Positions 18,118-60,500 of a stretch of DNA of 64,000 bases are shown here, one piece after another. The notes beneath the pieces were generated by a model, which saw nothing but the letters and a program-made list of their open reading frames with translations, had not been told where the DNA came from and did not search any database. Positions within the stretch are counted from its first letter, which is position 1, and every line of letters begins with the position of its first letter. A program made the translations under genes and the position numbers. The stretch is taken from contig NC_088295.1 of NCBI RefSeq assembly GCF_032854445.1, positions 42,455,385-42,519,384 on the forward strand, read 5' to 3'. Origin of the DNA: Liolophura sinensis. Lineage: Eukaryota > Mollusca > Polyplacophora > Chitonida > Chitonidae.

Positions 18118-18435
18118 TGCGCACCGGCATATCTTCATCGCAAAATCAGGTAGGGACACCGGTATAACTTTATCGCAAAATGAGTTAAGGGCACCGTTAT
18201 ATCTTCATCGCAAAATCAGGTATGGGCATCTGTCAGTATTTCTTCATCGCAAAATGAGGTATAGGCACCTGTATATCTTCATCGCAAAATGTAGTAAGGG
18301 CACTAGTATATATTCATCGCAAAATAAGGTATACGCACCGGTATATCCTCATCGCAAAATGAGGTAAGGGCACCGGTATATCTTCATCGCAAAATGAGGT
18401 ATACGCACAGGTATATCTTCGTCGCAAAATCAGGA
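18118..18435 (+). repeat. Minisatellite, about nine units of 35 bp
   Basis: The unit is close to GCACCGGTATATCTTCATCG plus CAAAATGAGGTAAGG. Nine copies follow head to tail, with variation mainly in the last bases (GGTAAGG versus GGTATAC or GGTATGG). TCATCGCAAAAT is the most constant part. No gene lies within it. Confidence 0.92.
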
Positions 18436-23330: not shown

Positions 23331-24917
23331 GTCCTAGTGCCGACCGATCTATTTATTATATTCTTTTTACACCCAGCCCTAGTGATGGTCGATATATATT
23401 TATATTGCTGTCTAAGAGGAACAACATGCCGAACATAGCAGAAGTGTTGCGCCACCAGTCCTAGCGCCGACCGATCTATTTATACTGCTGTCTCACTAGA
23501 ACGTCATTTCGAACACAGCAGAAATGTTGTTACACCCAGTCCTAGTGCCGGTCGATATATATTTATATTGCTGTCTAAGAGGAACAACATGCCAAACATA
23601 GCAGAAGTGTTGCTCCACCCAGTCCTAGCGCCGATCGATCTATTCTCACTAGAACGCCATTTCGAACACAGCAGAAATGTTGTTACACCTAGTCCTAGTG
23701 CCGGTCGATATATATTTATATTGCCGTCTCAGTGGAACAACATGCCGAACATAGCAGAAGTGTTGCGCCACCCAGTCCTAGTGCCGACCGATCTATTTAT
23801 AGTGCTGTCTCACTAGAACGCCATTTCGAACACAGCAGAAATGTTGTTACACCCAGTCCTAGTGCCGGTCGATATATATTTATATTGCTGTCTAAGAGGA
23901 ACAACATGCCGAACATAGCAGAAGTGTTGCGCCACCCAGTCCTAGTGCCGACCGATCTATTTATACTGCTGTCTCACTAGAACGTCATTTCGAACACAGC
24001 AGAAATGTTGTTACACCCAGTCCTAGTGCCGGTCGATATATATTTATATTGCTGTCTAAGAGGAACAACATGCCGAACATAGCAGAAGTGTTGCGCCACC
24101 CAGTCCTAGTGCCGACCGATCTATTTATACTGCTGTCTCACTAGAACGTCATTTCGAACACAGCAGAAATGTTGTTACACCCAGTCCTAGTGCCGGTCGA
24201 TATATATTTATATTGCTGTCTAAGAGGAACAACATGCCGAACATAGCAGAAGTGTTGCTCCACCCAGTCCTAGCGCCGATCGATCTATTCTCACTAGAAC
24301 GCCATTTCGAACACAGCAGAAATGTTGTTACACCTAGTCCTAGTGCCGGTCGATATATATTTATATTGCTGTCTAAGAGGAACAACATGCCGAACATAGC
24401 AGAAGTGTTGCGCCACCCAGTCCTAGTGCCGACCGATCTATTTATAGTGCTGTCTCACTAGAACGTCATTTCGAACACAGCAGAAATGTTGTTACACCCA
24501 GTCCTAGTGCCGGTCGATATATATTTATATTGCTGTCTAAGAGGAACAACATGCCGAACATAGCAGAAGTGTTGCGCCACCCAGTCCTAGTGCCGACCGA
24601 TCTATTTATACTGCTGTCTCACTAGAACGTCATTTCGAACACAGCAGAAATGTTGTTACACCCAGTCCTAGTGCCGGTCGATATATATTTATATTGCTGT
24701 CTAAGAGGAACAACATGCCGAACATAGCAGAAGTGTTGCGCCACCCAGTCCTAGTGCCGACCGATCTATTTATACTGCTGTCTCACTAGAACGTCATTTC
24801 GAACACAGCAGAAATGTTGTTACACCCAGTCCTAGTGCCGGTCGATATATATTTATACTGATGTTTCAGTGGAACAGCATCCCGAATACGGAAGAAATGT
24901 TGTCGCGCCCACAACCC
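23331..24917 (+). repeat. Satellite array with nested units of about 82, 164 and 645 bp
   Basis: Two related half-units of about 82 bp alternate. One contains CCGACCGATCTATTTATACT and AACGTCATTTCGAACACAGC. The other contains CCGGTCGATATATATTTATA and GGAACAACATGCCGAACATA. Both share CCAGTCCTAGTG and GCAGAARTGTTG. The pair forms a 164-bp unit, as shown by repeats of GTGCCGACCGATC near 23946 and 24110. A marked variant with CGCCGATCGATCTATTCTCA, lacking about 14-16 bases, occurs twice about 645 bp apart (near 23627 and 24272), so four dimers form a larger repeat. The edges are decayed, as expected. Open frames of 82 codons inside it are by-products of the repeat. Confidence 0.95.
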
Positions 24918-30925: not shown

Positions 30926-31152
30926 TATGTCCGTTATCGTCTGGCGCCTTGTTTATAAGGGGATACATATGTAGACCAAATACTATGGTCGACACGATGT
31001 CAGTATATGTCTGCATGGTGTCTGTGGCATGCAGGGTGTTCCAGTTAGGTGGAACTATTACAAGGACACTGTTAAGACATGACCCGAAATGAATTAAGTC
31101 ATACAGTAAATCACAAAGGAAATTAAATAAACTCTAGCCAAAGTACAGCCCT

Positions 31153-31620
31153 AATCAGCTGGTTCAGTATTCGAACATTATCATTATCATTATCGCAGTG
31201 CTACCCTAATCATGCAGCTGATTTAACATTCGGACATTATCATATCATTATCGCAGTGCAACCCTAATCAGCTGCTTCAAAATTCGGACATTCTCATATC
31301 ATTATCACATTGCAACCCTAATCAGCTGATTCAACATTCGGGCATTCTCATATCATTATCGCAGTGCAACGCTAATCAGCTGCTTCAAAATTCGGACATT
31401 CTCATATCACTATCACATTGCAACCCTAATCAGCTGATTCAACATTCGGACATTGTCATATCATTATCGCGGTGCAACCTTAATCAGCTTTTTAACATTC
31501 GGACATTATCATATCATTATTGTAGTGTTACCCTAATCAGCTGCTTCAACATTCGGACATTATCATATCATGGTCGCAGTGCAACCATAATCAGCTTTTT
31601 CAGCATTCTGGCATTATCTT
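31153..31620 (+). repeat. Minisatellite, nine units of 54 bp
   Basis: Units start with AATCAGCTG at 31153, 31208, 31266, 31320, 31374, 31428, 31482, 31535 and 31589. The consensus continues TTCAACATTCGGACATTATC, then ATATCATTATCGCAGTGCAA. Units three to six alternate between two variants (CTTCAAAATTC with CACATTG, GATTCAACATTC with CGCAGTG), hinting at a 108-bp dimer. Confidence 0.93.
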
Positions 31621-33529: not shown

Positions 33530-35375
33530 CCTCTGTCCATTATTTCAGCCTCTGTCCATGATTTCATTTGTTGGTGAGGAAGGTCGGCCATTGGGTTTGG
33601 ATGAGAAGAATCACCTCGCCTCTTTCTTTACACCTGTCCATTATTTCAGCCTCTGTCCATGATTTCATTTGTTGGTGAGGAAGGTCGGTCACTGGGTTTG
33701 GATGAAAAGAATCACCTCGCCTCTTTCTTTACACCTGTCCATGGTTTCAGCCTCTGTCCGTGATTCTAGTTTCGGTCCATGATCCTAACCTCATTCCAAG
33801 AGTTCAACCTGTGTCCAGCATGTCAGCCTTTGTCCATGATTCCATCCTCTATTCATGATTCCCGCATGTCCAACATTTCAACCTCTGTCCAACGTTTCAA
33901 CCTTTATCCATGATTGCAGCCTCTATTCATGATTCCACTTTACTCAAGATTCCAGCCTCTTTCCGATTTCAGTTTCCGTTCATGATTTCAGCATCTGTTT
34001 AAGATTTCACCCTTTGTCCACGATTCCTTCCAGCCTCTGCTCATGATTTCAGCCCCTTTCCAAGAATTCAGCCTCTGTCCAAGATTTCAAGTTATGTCCA
34101 TGGTTCCATCCAGCCTCTGTTCAGGATTCCAGTCTGTCCAAGATTTCAGCCTTTGTCTATGATTCCATGCAGCCGTTTTTAATGATTGCAGCCTTTAGTC
34201 AAGATTTTAGTCCTCGTCCAAGATTTCAACCTCTGCTCAACATTTCAGCCTCATTCCAACATCCCAGTTTCGATGTATGGTTCGACCCTCAGAGCATGAT
34301 TACAGCCTGTTCGTGATTTCTGGCTGTCCATGATTTCAGCCTCAGTCCATGATTTCTGCTTGTTCATGATTTCAGACTCAGTCCAAGATTTCTGCTTGAT
34401 CATGATTTCAGACTCAGTCCATGATTTCACCCTGTTTATGATTTCTGCTTGTTCATGATTCAGTCAGTCCTTGATTTTAGCCTGTCCATGATTTCTGGCT
34501 GTCCATAATTTCAGCCTCTTCATGATTTCAGCCTGTCCATGATTTTTACTTGTTCAGGATTTCAGACTCAGTCCATGATTTCTGGTGGTCATGATTTCAG
34601 ACTCAGTCCATGATTTCAGCATGTTCATGATTTCTGCTTGTTCATGATTTCAGTCAGTCCCTGATTTCAGCCTGTTCATGATTTCTGCTTGTTCATGATT
34701 TCAGTAAATCCATGATGTTAGCCTGTTCATGATTTCTGCTTGTTCATGATTTCAGTCAGTCCCTGATTTCAGCCTGTTCATGATTTCTGCTTGTTCATGA
34801 TTTCAGTCAGTCCTTGATTTCAGCCTGTCCATGATTTTTGCTTGTTCATGATTTCAGCCTCAGTCCATGGTTTCTGCTTGTTCATGATTTCAGACTCAGT
34901 CCATGATTTCAGCCTGTTCATGATTCCTGCTTGTTCATGATTTCAGTCAGTCCATGATTTCAGCCTGTCCATGATTTCTGGCTGTCCATGATTTCAGTCT
35001 ATTCATGATTTCACCCTGTCCATGATTTTTACTTGTTCATGATTTCAGACTCAGTCCATGATTTCTGCTTATTCATGATTTCAGACTCAGTCCCTGATTT
35101 CAGCCTGCTCATGATTTCTCCATGTTCATGATTTCAGTCAGTCCATGATTTTAGCCTGTCCATGATTTTAGCCCGTCCATGATTTCAGCCAGTCCATGAT
35201 TCGAGCTTTGTTGTATGATTCCATCCTCTGGGCATGATTACAGCCTCTGTTCATGTTTTCATGTTAGCACTAGTCCGTGATTTCAGCTACAGTCAGTGAT
35301 TTCTGTTTCAGTTTAAGTGATTGCATTCTCCGTTTATGATTTCAGCCCCAGTAGTCTTACATAATTATTACAGCT
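33530..35375 (+). repeat. Large minisatellite of about 17/34-bp units (CATGATTTCAG type)
   Basis: More than a hundred variants of TCCATGATTTCAGCCTG follow one another. In the middle (about 34300-35150) they settle into alternating units TTCATGATTTCTGCTTG and TTCATGATTTCAGTCAG. Toward both edges the units decay. The array continues past an inserted SINE to about 35940. It is pyrimidine-skewed on the plus strand and non-coding as far as I can see. Confidence 0.93.
33534..33735 (+). repeat. 101-bp tandem duplication inside the minisatellite
   Basis: TGTCCATTATTTCAGCCTCT through CTCTTTCTTTACACC is present twice, at about 33534-33634 and 33635-33735, with only a few differences (CGGCCATTGGG versus CGGTCACTGGG). 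The near-identity shows the duplication is younger than the surrounding array. Confidence 0.9.
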
Positions 35376-42927: not shown

Positions 42928-43536
42928 ATGTTTGTGTTGTCAGAGATGAAGGACACGGTACGTGTACCGCCGTGGGCATTCCATAAGAAGCTGAACGATG
43001 CTGTGAAGAAGACTCTGAATGACAAACTGGCAAACAAAGTTGTCCACAACGTCGGTCTATGTATTGCATTATGGGACATAACTAAGCTAGAAGACAGTTA
43101 CATCTTCCCCGGAGATGGCGCATCCCATACGGTTGTCTTCTTCAGATATGTCGTTTTCAGACCTTTTATGGACGAGATTTTGGTAGGAAAGATAAAAAGC
43201 TGCAGCAAGGAGGGTGTGCACATATCGCTTGGGTTCTTCGATGACATTTTACTACCCTCCGATTCCCTCCAGCATCCGTCAAGATTTGATGAAGCTGAAC
43301 AGCTCTGGGTGTGGGAATACGAAACTGAGGATGGGAAGCACGATCTCTTCATGGATCCAGGAGAAGAAATACGCTTTCGGGTTGTCGAGGAGATATTCGT
43401 GGACACAACGCCGAATGCTCCCGAAAGTGTATCAGAACAGCCAGACTTAAGTGAAGATACAAAAAAGTCTCCGTACACTATTATAGGTTCAATTAGTGAA
43501 CCTGGACTGGGTCTTCTTTCATGGTGGAACTCGTGA
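42928..43536 (+). CDS. POLR3H: DNA-directed RNA polymerase III subunit RPC8
   Basis: A single uninterrupted frame of 202 residues, essentially the length of the human protein (about 204). It begins [20 protein letters not shown], the RPB7-type tip domain. It has [20 protein letters not shown] and [20 protein letters not shown], then the OB-fold part with [22 protein letters not shown] in order. The hallmark end [14 protein letters not shown] is near the stop. RPC8 pairs with RPC9 in the stalk of Pol III and helps initiation at tRNA and 5S genes in the nucleus. There is no intron, although the vertebrate gene is split. All conserved blocks are intact, so it looks functional. No poly-A tract or target-site duplication is visible at the 3' end, so a recent retrocopy is not demonstrated. 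A possible poly-A signal ATTAAA lies near 43829. Confidence 0.96.
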
Positions 43537-47757: not shown

Positions 47758-48573
47758 GCAAAGTTAGTAATGAACCACTCAGATTGAGCCCGAATTACTT
47801 TGAGGGGAAAACGTTACCAGTGAAAGCTTTCTTCTGTGGTACACGCCCATCCATTCTTATATAACGCCATACGACTTCATATACAGGTTACATGTCATAC
47901 TGGATAGACTATTTGTCGTAGTATTACTTGTGAATTGGCTTTGTGACACGCACGCCGTGATTGGTTGAAAGGTCAGCGCAATGCACACGTCCTGTTGAAA
48001 TATTTCCGCGCATTCAAGTTAAAACTATCCATTTCAACTATGTTCATCATCTGTTGTTTATCTCGAAGGGTATGGCAGGCTTTGGACAACCTGTTGTTTG
48101 GGCATGCGTGACTTTTTTAACACAACCCTCGGGAAGTAGGCACGCCATTAACAAAGATAGAAGGGGATTTGTAAACATTGTAACCCGTTTACTGACAGAA
48201 CACACACGAACGTTAATTATCGCATCCTAACAATAGATGAAAGTCATTAAAATGGTAATGTTTGGCGCGGACTAACTGACCTGGTGTTGTAACAGATATG
48301 GAACTCATAAAGTCTAGTACAAAATCTGTATAGGTAACTGTTGATATGCATGTTACACAGACTAAAATATAAGAGCAATTAAGTTGTGCAGGCTTTCATG
48401 CTATACGACTTTTAGTATAAACGCCACCACAGGGCAACCATAGTTGCAAAATATTAGCATCTTTTGTGTTGTCAGGCAGACATCTGACGTTCCAATCATT
48501 AGAATGATTCCCACACTGTCATCAGTTGGTAAAAATCTTTCACGTGTATATGCACAAGCACCGATTTGTTGAC
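47758..48573. other. Downstream flank of the secreted-protein gene
   Basis: The minus-strand 3' UTR of the gene ending at 48574 should lie here, but I see no canonical poly-A signal close to the stop. The open frame at 47961-48230 has no support. Confidence 0.35.
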
Positions 48574-50439
48574 TTATTGCAAGAGTTCAATTTTCCAGTC
48601 AGACCCTGTGATTTCCTCCCCTGACCCACACCTGTTGATGAAATCCACTGTAGAGGCCTCCTGGGTCTCCCACCCGTTTGTCAGCTGGTTGACCGTTCGA
48701 CCATTGGTCACGATGGTGTCCACGCCGTTGGTAGCGTCACTCGCCCATGGTGCTATGAAGCGAACCAGTGGGGAGGTTTCCGTGTCGATGTTGACGTTAG
48801 CGCCAGTGATGGTAAATTCTGCCGTCTCGGAGGTAGCGTCGATAAAGAGATTGACGGTGCTGTTGTCCAAGAAAGTGATGTTCATCGACAGTTCTGTGGG
48901 GTTTACGTCCACCGACCGAATACCGGCCACACCCGGTGCCAGTTTGAACGTGGATCGTTCGCCAGGCGGGAGGAACTGGCCGAGTATTGGCGACGCCAGG
49001 GAGATAGAACCGTCTTGGGTCAGTTCGAATATTGGTACTGAGTCCAACCCTCCGTTAGGCTTGAGATTTACGACAATGGCGTCTGCTCCGTTCACGGGTG
49101 ACGGGTTTATCCCACTTACAGCCATTGTAGGACGATCAGGGTTTCCAGGATCCCCAGACGAAATAGCCTCGATGGAAAACTGTTGAGCGTCAATAGATAC
49201 AGGGTTCTCCGATACACTGTCACTTAAGAACAGTCGTATGAAGTCGATCGCAATTTGAGTCGGTATCTCGGCCTCCACAACAATTTCCAGTCTATTCTGC
49301 CCAAGGGGGTCTAATCCCAGTTCTCCTACAGCGAATTGCCAAACATTTTTCAAAGAGTTGGGATCAAATTTTTTGAACAGTGGAGGAGACATTTCACCAT
49401 TGTCGAAAAGTGCCTGAACTGAAACGTTTACGGGCAATTCCGATGTCACTAAGGCTATTTCAACGTAAGCCAAGCCGTTTGGAATATTTTGCAAACCTGC
49501 GAATTGTCCTCCATTAAAACTCACCTGGAACTGGCTGACCGAAGACGTGTCTAGGGTTCCGAGAAATTCTGCGTCAGGTGTTCCGATGACGAACTCAGGA
49601 AGTTGGTTAATACTGCCCGACGGAGTATCGGAGAACTCACCAGCGCTCTCGTCCTCATTGCCGATCTGCCAAATGACGGCCTGGGTTCCAGCGTTCCCGG
49701 AGGAACCTCCACCGACGTACCAAGGTGTTACAGCGACAACTCTGCAAGGAACCAAGGGACGTGGGAACATGTCGATCGCCGCCGCCGTCTGGCCGTCTTC
49801 CGTCGTGATCAGACCTTGGTTCTGAAGTAGAAGTACAGCGCCAGAGTCTTTAACCGGGTTACCCGCCTCTTCGTCATAGTCGAACTCTTCCACCACCTCG
49901 TCCAGGCATTTTTCGCAGCGTAAGTATTCCTCGTCGGTGAAATTCGGAATATCGATGTTAAGTTCGACAGTATCCAACTCTACCCCGTGAGCATCGGTTT
50001 GGTTCAGACTGAACTGCACCTTGTGGAAGCCCGGGGGGAGCCGTTTGGGCTCACCAACAGCACCCGAAGACAAGAATAGGTTCCAGTTCTTACCCCAGTC
50101 CGTGTGAGACTTACTGTCAAAGGACCCCACAAGTTCTTCGTTAATGAACACGGGAACACTGTCTCCTTCGCCGTCATTTGAGTATCTCACATTCTCTACA
50201 GTCACGGTGGCTTCTACGGGAAGACAGAATTTTATTCCCGCATAATGTCCGGCCTTCAGTACCACACTCTGTAATCCAGAGGCGTTAGATCGTGGAATAA
50301 TCGCGTCAATATCCGAGTTTTCTAGATAGTTTTGGAAGTCGAATTGAATGGACACACCATTTGCACCGGGTGGATTGGACAAAAAGGCTGTTCTTGCCAG
50401 TAATATCCAAAACAACGATAAATCCATGATTGCCCTCAT
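48574..50439 (-). CDS. Secreted protein of about 621 residues with a CBM6-like region, intronless
   Basis: One uninterrupted minus-strand frame. The ATG at 50439 starts MRAIMDLSLFWILLARTAFL, a good signal peptide; no ATG lies upstream in frame, and a TATA box sits about 70 bp upstream. A second ATG at 50427 is possible. Residues about 60-165 look like a family-6 carbohydrate-binding jelly roll: AGHYAGIKF, VENVRYSNDGEGDSVPVFIN, DWGKNWNLF, LPPGFHKVQF, HGVELDTVEL. A CEKC pair follows near 175-178, then a long beta-rich part (about 230-410) with GGQFAGLQNIPNGLAYVEIA and IAIDFIRLFLSDS, perhaps a second jelly roll. There are several N-x-S/T sites and few cysteines. There is no membrane anchor, so it is probably extracellular. 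I do not recognise the full protein. The missing introns, own TATA box and more GC-rich coding stretch fit either a highly expressed matrix or mucus protein or a gene gained by transfer. Confidence 0.88.
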   Translation of the reverse strand: MRAIMDLSLFWILLARTAFLSNPPGANGVSIQFDFQNYLENSDIDAIIPRSNASGLQSVVLKAGHYAGIKFCLPVEATVTVENVRYSNDGEGDSVPVFINEELVGSFDSKSHTDWGKNWNLFLSSGAVGEPKRLPPGFHKVQFSLNQTDAHGVELDTVELNIDIPNFTDEEYLRCEKCLDEVVEEFDYDEEAGNPVKDSGAVLLLQNQGLITTEDGQTAAAIDMFPRPLVPCRVVAVTPWYVGGGSSGNAGTQAVIWQIGNEDESAGEFSDTPSGSINQLPEFVIGTPDAEFLGTLDTSSVSQFQVSFNGGQFAGLQNIPNGLAYVEIALVTSELPVNVSVQALFDNGEMSPPLFKKFDPNSLKNVWQFAVGELGLDPLGQNRLEIVVEAEIPTQIAIDFIRLFLSDSVSENPVSIDAQQFSIEAISSGDPGNPDRPTMAVSGINPSPVNGADAIVVNLKPNGGLDSVPIFELTQDGSISLASPILGQFLPPGERSTFKLAPGVAGIRSVDVNPTELSMNITFLDNSTVNLFIDATSETAEFTITGANVNIDTETSPLVRFIAPWASDATNGVDTIVTNGRTVNQLTNGWETQEASTVDFINRCGSGEEITGSDWKIELLQ

Positions 50440-50505
50440 TGCAAACGTTTCTGCTGAAAAAAGCACTGGCTCTGTATACACCTATAGTCTTTATTTTAAC
50501 GTTCT

Positions 50506-50516
50506 TATTTATATAC
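50506..50516 (-). promoter_or_regulatory. TATA box of the secreted-protein gene
   Basis: Minus-strand GTATATAAATA lies about 67 bases upstream of the ATG at 50439. A start site 25-32 bases downstream would fall near 50475-50485, giving a 5' UTR of about 40 bases. The spacing supports the ATG at 50439 as the start. Confidence 0.7.
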
Positions 50517-50519
50517 GCT

Positions 50520-51305
50520 TGTTCGCTCAAAATACGTCGGCCCCGCCCCAAAGTTGAATGTCACTTGATTTTTTGTTTGACGTTATCACGTGGTATACAT
50601 TTTACGCCCGTCAATATAACTTCCGAGGGGGTGGTCTCTGCACAGGTCCGCGTTTGTCAGGATCAGAATGTCACTGAAATTTGGCCTCTCCGTTTACTCC
50701 CACCCACGCAGTGAGAAGGTACGCGGTGATTCTAAGTTAAATACATTTCAATACTGAAATACTCCTCCCACAAGAGAACGAATATAAATGCGGTACACCC
50801 TGATGTAATATCACCGCCTTTATCTTAAAGCGGGGAAGATTACATGTAGTCATCTTTAGCACACGTCTAACAGAGGCGTATAACCGTGCTGCTTTACGTC
50901 ACAGTCAGATGGGCGAGAAATGTGAGAGAATAAGACATCATTGAGAGTTAAATGGAGTGGCATGGCTAATCCTGTAGGTGTCAACGTCTGTACAATTGTG
51001 CACCTCACACATCACAACCTCTGACTGGTGGTATATATAACACGTCCCATGTCAACCTCGCTTATGTGACAGTTTAGCTGGTGTGTCACAATAGGTGGTG
51101 AATGGTGATGGTGCTGCAGTAATTACTTAAAGCTAAAATTAGACAATAGGTCACGGACAATGCCATTTGACAGGGTCTGATGAATGTTAACTAAGTCTAT
51201 TTACACATCCTTTAATGAAACCATTTTCAACGTGAAGTTAAAAAGAATTGGTTCAGCCAACATGAAAATATTTATTTATCTATCTAGTAATTTTATTATT
51301 ATTAT
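50520..51305. other. Upstream region of the secreted-protein gene
   Basis: No coding exon or repeat is recognised. It presumably holds more distal control sequence for the gene on the minus strand. Confidence 0.35.
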
Positions 51306-57500: not shown

Positions 57501-60500
57501 GGAAAGACACATCATGGACATGGAAAGGTGTGTATTTTTAGTCAGTATTGAAATTGTGCACCAAGCAGGCTTAATGATATTTTAGGCTTTCCACATGACA
57601 TTGGTTTACAAAACTAAAATTAATTCTATAGTTTTTCTCACAAACTGAGCTTGAATATAGCCTAAGTGGCCTCACAGACACATGAAGAACACAACATTTT
57701 CCTAACAGTGGTTCGTACTTTATTTGCCCTTATTCTTCATCCTTTTCAACCGCCTTTGCAACCAATATTTTGAAATGTTCTGAAAGAACTGTGGGTTGTA
57801 GACAAATAGTTTGCACAGTTTTATGAAGCTTGCATCTTTAATTATGAAAACAAATCATTTTAACAACTTTTTTCATAATAATTGTCATACTCCTGTTCAG
57901 GATTAGCTTCATCACTTGTGTCCTCCTGCGGAAATATTTAATCAACATTCATCAATAAAATTGTTCTAGGTATTGGTTAGAATCACGTTACACATTCTTT
58001 TGATAAAGAGAATACATGTGTATGAAGTAGTATTAGAGACGAAGGTCGAGATGGATTGTTTGTGTTTTCTGACACCACTTCCTGCCTCATCACCATGACC
58101 CCAGTGACCTCAGCTTTGTGCAACTTTATGTACAAATTTGCTATTGGTGGCAGTGATGAAAAGAGAAAGGTAGAGACTGACATGTTCACTGCAGGGAGAA
58201 TAATTATATGCAGAAATTCCACTGAAAAAAGTGCTTTACTGGTTGAAAAGGTTGAAGATTTACAGTACATCTTGTTTCTCTTAATGTCATTTTAACTTTG
58301 AAACTAGCCCTAGGTCATTTTAAGACATTTCTTCCAACATTACACTTTAAGAGGACACTATATGAGGGAAGTGACATCGGGGGAGGTAATTTGATGGAGC
58401 TCTATTTCACCATTTACTTTTTATTTATCCTATTTCTTGTATTGTTAATATTTGTTTTGTATCTTTTTGTTCTTTTCTCGCAGAAATACACAAGTGACAA
58501 GCAATCCTACTGTTTCACCTGCGAAGACGTACATACTCTCGAATAGTACCTGTTTGTCTCCAGCTTCATCCACCTCCAGTCAGGTAGTTAATGAGAACCT
58601 GTGATTTCTTTGTTTTTGCTTGAATAATAAAGTATATATGTAATTATGCTTGTGTTGCTGTTTACCCAGTAGACCACTTGTCTTCCACCAGCATGGTCTA
58701 ATTTTATTTATTTATTTCTTTGATTGGTGTTTTACGCCGTACTCAGAAATATTTCACTTACATGTCAGTGGCCCATCATTATGGTGAGGGGAAACTGAGC
58801 AGAGCCTGGGGGAAACCCACGACTATCCGCACGTTGCTGGCAGACCTTCCCACATACTGAACTTGAACTCACAGGCACCACATTGGTAGAGGCTAGTGAG
58901 TCATTGGGCTGTGCATTGTGCTAACCACAGAGGCCACTGAGGCCCCCAGTAACTTTTTATTGCTGTTTATTTATGTGTTTCAGTCTTCGCCATCTTTGAG
59001 TAAAGTTTGCGTGATAAATAACGTAAAGCCTTTGAGTGGACAAATCAGGACGATTGTGAACAATCCAGCAAACTCTGTCACCCCCAGTACTGTAGAGGAT
59101 AAGTCTGCTAACCCATTAGGCCCAAGGGTGGTGGTTGTCCGACGCAATGCACCCCCTCCTAGTCAGACAAACACTTTCCAAAAGAAGGTGCTGTACAGAG
59201 TACAGGCCTCCCCCAACTCTGCTGCAAACTTGACAAACCTAGATTTGTGTGCAGTATGGAATGGTAGTATGTTTGTGGAGGCAAGTAAACAAGGTAAGCT
59301 TCAGAAACCACTCGCTGAGGTATGTCTGACTAATTTGTTACTACACATGTATTACTAATACTTGGTAGTAAAGGATTAGTGTCCAGATTGGCTATTTATT
59401 CATAATTAGCTATCCCTGCTTATATTATTAAATTAAGTGCAAAAAAATATTGAAAAAATGTACATTAATCTGAGTAATATGGCAGTAAAATCACTAGATA
59501 ATGCGGCTGGGTTTATGCATATTTTCCACCAACACTCTGTAGTCTTCGTCGAACCTTTAGGTTCAGTGTTAAGAAAGCCACAAACACGATAACAAGCATA
59601 TGGAATTTTCTCCACGAAATGGTTTGCTGTTTTGCACATGGTTCTAAAACAGTTGGTCAAAGAACCCTGGAGTTTTTTCAAGTTTCCAATTTGGCCCTCA
59701 AGAAAGCATGCATTCACAGCACAAGACAGAGAGGTTTTATACCCACCAAACACAGCTGTATCTGCTCTCGCCTTTTTCCAGCAGAAAGCTATGAGAGGAA
59801 TTCACATGAACACACAAGATTTGGCAACTATGGGGGCAGCCGTCGACTGAAACCTGAAGCTATTCCCACCATAGTCACCATGATGACATACACAACCCAG
59901 GATGTCTTTATTGAGACAATTTGCCCCAAACCACCAATGTTGACATATGCACAATAACTGGCCCTCCTCCAAGGCTTTCCTCTCAGTCTCGCTGACTTTT
60001 ACACAACACAGACTTTCCAATTCTGTGGACATCTGTAGGCAGTTTCCATAACGACACCTCGCACGTCCACATCGCACATGTATTTATATTGCACACGACT
60101 ATAGGCCCGTAATAGGCATAGGCTATTCCGAATGTTGACAATCACGTACCAGTAATTGCCATTGCATATGGGTAGGAATTTCGAATCACTAGGGGGAATA
60201 GAATTATATTTATTTGAAGCTCACAGAAGGGAAGAATAGTAAATATTAAATCTGATATAGGCCCTACATACAAAATGTAGACCTACGGTGTAACACAAGA
60301 TAAAGCTATAGCTTACCAGTCCATATATTGCCAGTGCGGTTGGAAATGCCCTGACAAAAATCAAATTCAACACCTGAAAACTTGGTATCTTAAGTCTCGC
60401 CAGAGATGTCAGTGTCATAAATTGTAACTTCAAAATCGTCCACTATGGGTTCAAATTGATATGGCTGTATCTATTTTCTTGTGTGTAGCTAGAATCCGTC

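Follow-up and report, generated by a model that had tools for sequence, protein, structure and literature searches.

Polysaccharide-binding modules of the CBM6 and PF14683 types (the latter being domain III of polysaccharide lyase family 4, PL4) usually accompany catalytic domains. Here we describe a gene in which weakly matching counterparts of both modules may occur together, in a 64,000-nucleotide stretch of contig NC_088295.1 from the chiton Liolophura sinensis (the window, to which coordinates refer unless a contig or locus is named). The gene, at 48574–50439 on the minus strand, is real and unbroken. In our judgment, its product is probably a secreted and N-glycosylated, non-catalytic glycan binder with two jelly-roll modules, belonging to a small, old, intronless family under purifying selection.

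The coding sequence runs from ATG to TAA (50439 to 48574) through 621 codons plus the TAA and contains no internal stop. By chance, ATG-initiated frames reached at most 195 codons across 40 order-2 Markov simulations of 64 kb each and at most 266 codons across 200 simulated 2.1-kb stretches of local composition, which rules out a chance reading frame. For the coding part, we can also rule out that the frame is one exon of a longer gene, because two single-exon paralogs align with it end to end and match it at both termini; it follows that the coding sequence is complete and contained in one exon. The sequence-only reading, an earlier description of this stretch, had placed a 621-residue single-exon frame here, and its coordinates and length were right, with three full-length single-exon family members now on record. 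On the plus strand, antisense to the gene, a 217-codon stop-to-stop frame (48533–49186) was taken to be a coding-strand shadow.

The paralogs emerged from a six-frame search of the host genome (609 Mb in 632 contigs, with the window on contig C1), in which counts are lower bounds and from which an intron-split relative could consequently have escaped. With the window protein as query, this search found at least two further intact members (expect value (E) 1.5e-30), each a 635-codon single-exon frame, at C1:40688269-40690173 and C1:40692446-40694350. They form a tandem pair 1.8 Mb from the window gene, and a search with one of them returned the same three members plus a fragment with stops, given as two pieces. 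The proteins of the pair are 97.6% identical, and for the duplicated unit identity is 96.8% across an alignment of 2431 columns; the window protein shares 25% identity with both, from its N-terminus to its last residues and including Cys604. That fragment is a decayed copy beside the pair (C1:40685974-40686285, or L011:5974-6285) and has 82.6% DNA identity over 316 columns. Among codons of the pair that differ by a single change, 14 are synonymous (439 sites) and 12 non-synonymous (1466 sites), giving a ratio of non-synonymous to synonymous rates (dN/dS) of ~0.25 with three multi-change codons, all amino-acid changing, left out. Purifying selection on the pair is the natural reading. Together, the three intact members appear to constitute a small and old host gene family that is single-exon throughout its coding sequence.

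Several features suggest that the window protein is secreted. Residues 1–27 (50359–50439, minus) resemble a signal peptide in their hydropathy, with a putative cleavage point; the best 19-residue Kyte-Doolittle mean in this stretch is 1.56, starting at residue 3, and the paralogs likewise begin with a hydrophobic stretch (2.06). Past residue 35, the mean never exceeds 1.31, which gives no sign of a membrane anchor, and the protein carries six N-glycosylation motifs. Secretion by way of a signal peptide, as the sequence-only reading had it, is thus supported by a signal-peptide-like start, the lack of any other strongly hydrophobic stretch and these six motifs.

The same reading had also named a carbohydrate-binding-like domain, and here the support is weak and at the level of the fold. 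The domain in question, D1 (residues 28–166; 49942–50358, minus), may be a jelly roll of the CBM6/CBM35/CBM36 type. Structure prediction and a CBM6/CBM35 profile search, two of the checks that had been proposed, gave a low-confidence CBM-type fold match and a CBM_6 match below cut-off in one paralog. Specifically, a single-sequence model of D1 with a predicted local distance difference test score (pLDDT) of 52.5 had a best Foldseek E of 2.3e-4; 6 of the 951 matches reached E <= 0.001, and a carbohydrate-binding module of family 6, 35 or 36 was named in 17 of the best 50 of the 951. Pfam CBM_6 matched one paralog over positions 2-122/125 (E 0.19, 12.5 bits, cut-off 28.9 bits), and no Pfam CBM_6 match was listed for the other paralog or the window protein. 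Among matches to profile A1, MiXBM (E 1.1) fell over the start of D1; those to ribosomal S22 and S-adenosylmethionine decarboxylase (E 0.5-1.9) were judged to be chance.

At least two more parts follow the CBM-like domain, beyond what the sequence-only reading had described, and one of them resembles PF14683. A linker (residues 167–228; 49756–49941, minus) carries CxxC at residues 175–178, where the paralogs have CxxxC, and leads into D2 (residues 229–410; 49210–49755, minus), in which the window protein and both paralogs share the motif WQIGN.D....EF. PF14683 matched the paralogs at E 1.9e-5 and 1.4e-5 over 1-159/160 of the profile, with 25.1 and 25.5 bits, just under the curated cut-off of 27 bits; the window D2 matched over 2-61/160 (E 0.0088, 16.4 bits), below the same cut-off. 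Four PF14683 matches occur in the whole host genome, and the two best are the tandem paralogs. The match on contig C10 lies in a GH39/porphyranase-like frame (locus L015) and is ruled out as a family member, and the one at locus L016 has stops and was set aside. A 54-residue match of D2 to PncA (3pl1; E 0.0083) was judged to be chance. These results weakly support D2 as a PL4-domain-III-like module.

The remaining third, D3 (residues 411–621; 48577–49209, minus), whose alignment with the paralogs extends to the last residues, had no credible match in profile and PDB sequence searches. A DUF2272 match to part of D3 in one paralog (E 0.14) and PDB matches of D3 (E 0.62 and 0.84) were judged to be chance. 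When the six pairs of D1, D2, D3 and the linker (a piece that ran a few residues into D1 and D2) were tested as internal repeats, only D1–D3 stood out; its score was reached by 4 of 500 shuffles with BLOSUM62 and 1 of 500 with BLOSUM45, but the match is weak and covers a proline-rich stretch.

What might such a protein do? If secreted, it would act outside the cell, where the CBM6/CBM35-like N-terminal module and the PL4-domain-III-like middle module could bind a polysaccharide or glycan, with D3 following as a third, C-terminal domain. An enzyme hidden in D3, or in the protein as a whole (such as a glycosidase or lyase that also carries two binding modules), is a rather doubtful alternative. 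The usual company of PF14683 and CBM6 modules would favor it, as would a D3 that aligns across the family with no assigned match; nevertheless, Pfam, NCBIfam and PDB sequence searches listed no credible catalytic family, and, at E <= 10, Pfam listed no PL4 catalytic lyase domain for any of the three intact members. As the protein has two putative sugar-binding modules and matches no known catalytic family, the simplest reading is that it is secreted and binds glycans multivalently; glycan binding and non-catalysis, like any proposal for ligand or tissue, we infer.

The term 'unrecognised', which the sequence-only reading had applied to this protein, holds. No family match exceeded a curated cut-off in Pfam or NCBIfam for the three members or in PHROGs for the window protein, and we found no name for the family in those parts of the literature that we saw. 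The gene offers a specific candidate secreted glycan-binding protein, one without a name in Pfam, NCBIfam or PHROGs, and its clean paralogs are well suited to structural and selection tests. Two observations qualify the overall picture as we have drawn it. First, the dN/dS of the tandem pair would rise if the three omitted codons were included. Second, a TATA-box candidate upstream of the window gene, TATATAAAT (50507–50515, minus; 76 bases before the ATG), has no counterpart at that position in the paralogs, where the same scan of 300 bases ahead of the ATG picked up TATATA only, at -15/-13.

The motif itself is present where the sequence-only reading had reported a well-placed TATA box; its role as a promoter is plausible, and the evidence is suggestive, not proven. 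With both strands of the window counted, the exact 9-mer has nine occurrences, a density of 0.07 per kb per strand. Looser patterns are more frequent: TATAWAAR has a density of 0.31 per kb per strand (a chance of ~3% per 100 bases) and TATAWAWR one of 2.6 per kb per strand (~23% per 100 bases). Just upstream lies a GC-box-like run, GGGGCGGGGCC (50539–50549, minus), which may be an Sp1/KLF-type site and which includes GGGCGG at -109 from the ATG; a CACGTG E-box-like hexamer lies further upstream at -153 (50587–50592, minus). GGGCGG and CACGTG were both absent from the 300 bases before the ATG of the paralogs.

It is unlikely, in our estimation, that some transcripts are spliced within the frame or carry a 5' untranslated intron, in which case describing the gene as intronless and TATA-driven would be incomplete. 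With scoring matrices of our own making, the scan found a perfect donor-like CAGGTGAGT inside the frame (49519–49527, minus), a second donor-like site, CTGGTGAGT, with its intron base at 49640, and an acceptor-like site with its exon base at 49741, whose score is reached 0.27 times per kb per strand; in addition, the acceptor-like TTTTTTCAG sits between the TATA candidate and the ATG. Nonetheless, neither the open frame nor its alignment with the paralogs breaks off at the CAGGTGAGT donor or past it, and acceptor scores similar to those of the two CAG sites that precede the ATG are reached ~5 and 1.1 times per kb per strand. GTRAGT occurs four times in the window frame, once within CAGGTGAGT, and not at all in the paralogs, so alternative splicing may still affect the window gene.

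Acquisition from a microbe, which the sequence-only reading had raised, is not supported by our searches. No relative was found in phages or plasmids, nor in GTDB contigs or viral contigs; the latter two scans used only 2-6 short peptide patterns each and would reveal close relatives alone, so their silence is weak evidence. The host genome was the one eukaryotic collection searched for relatives. Recent arrival is unlikely, because the window gene retains only 25% identity to the tandem pair in the same genome. We also regard as improbable a scenario in which the family was acquired long ago from a polysaccharide-degrading microbe and kept its intronless structure through later divergence and duplication. 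In its favor, none of the three intact members found has coding introns, D1 and D2 are similar to modules that typify the carbohydrate-active enzymes of microbes, and PF14683 had matches in none of 14 control genomes. Against it, in addition to the database results, foreign composition is not evident (GC content at third codon positions is 0.55, versus 0.49 in POLR3H, the one host gene compared, with which the codon-fraction correlation is 0.56), and POLR3H, a eukaryotic gene in the same window, is equally intronless. For this last reason, an intronless frame is weak evidence of transfer, and in this genome a lack of introns does not by itself justify a reading of transfer.

Intronless paralogs would also be expected if the founder arose as a retrogene, copied from a spliced animal mRNA and duplicated afterwards, an origin that we think still less probable. 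All three members are single-exon, and the nearby POLR3H could be a second case of this kind. However, the six-frame search found no intron-bearing parent in the genome, within its lower-bound counts, and no run of at least eight A residues follows the stop within 4 kb, a mark that fades in old retrocopies. The probabilities that we attach to these alternatives overlap, and adding them to that of the secreted glycan binder does not give one, as origin, splicing and function are separate questions.

The sequence-only reading had set the frame among interrupted genes, yet POLR3H (RPC8), the one neighbor identified in the window, is itself intronless. It is an intact gene of 202 codons at 42928–43536 on the plus strand, and no other copy was found in the genome. 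It matched the Pfam Rbc25 domain (E 2e-41) and PDB chain 7a6h_G (RPC8, presumably the human protein; E 2.6e-100), with the next RPC8 chains far below (E 1.5e-50 and weaker). A THAP-domain-like stretch at 59502–59954 on the plus strand scored just under its cut-off (E 1.7e-4; 22.7 versus 23.9 bits). The window also holds long tandem repeat arrays at 18121–18434 (~35-base unit), 23367–24886 (~164), 31142–31618 (~54) and 33735–35261 (~17). Elsewhere in the genome, the L015 frame mentioned above spans 494 codons (L015:370-1854, plus; PF14683 match at 12638718-12639014 of C10). It has a GH39 match over cut-off (27.6 bits), while its matches to the porphyranase beta-sandwich and to the beta-porphyranase C-terminus do not reach their cut-offs, and may be a porphyranase/agarase-like gene, perhaps its last exon, since by eye the translation begins after an acceptor-like stretch. 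Such a gene would suit an algal grazer; nothing links it to the window gene.

How closely does the family resemble systems already described? With CBM6, CBM35 and CBM36 modules, it shares the group matched by the D1 model in Foldseek and, in one paralog, nearly the full span of the CBM_6 profile. It differs in that this profile match is below cut-off and confined to that paralog, and in that LEAE near the mature N-terminus of the paralogs is replaced by FDFQ in the window protein. With PL4 domain III, the paralogs share the profile from end to end and the window D2 its first third, including the WQIGN.D....EF stretch, whereas every score lies under the curated cut-off. A more elaborate and quite speculative proposal is that these are members of an undescribed family of secreted animal proteins, combining CBM35/6-like, PL4-domain-III-like and new beta-rich C-terminal domains, that came long ago from a marine polysaccharide-degrading microbe, lost any catalytic part, was recruited as an extracellular glycan binder and never gained introns. 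Whatever its source, the protein that we favor, a secreted glycan binder, would act outside the cell in the manner of a multi-module soluble lectin or matrix protein.
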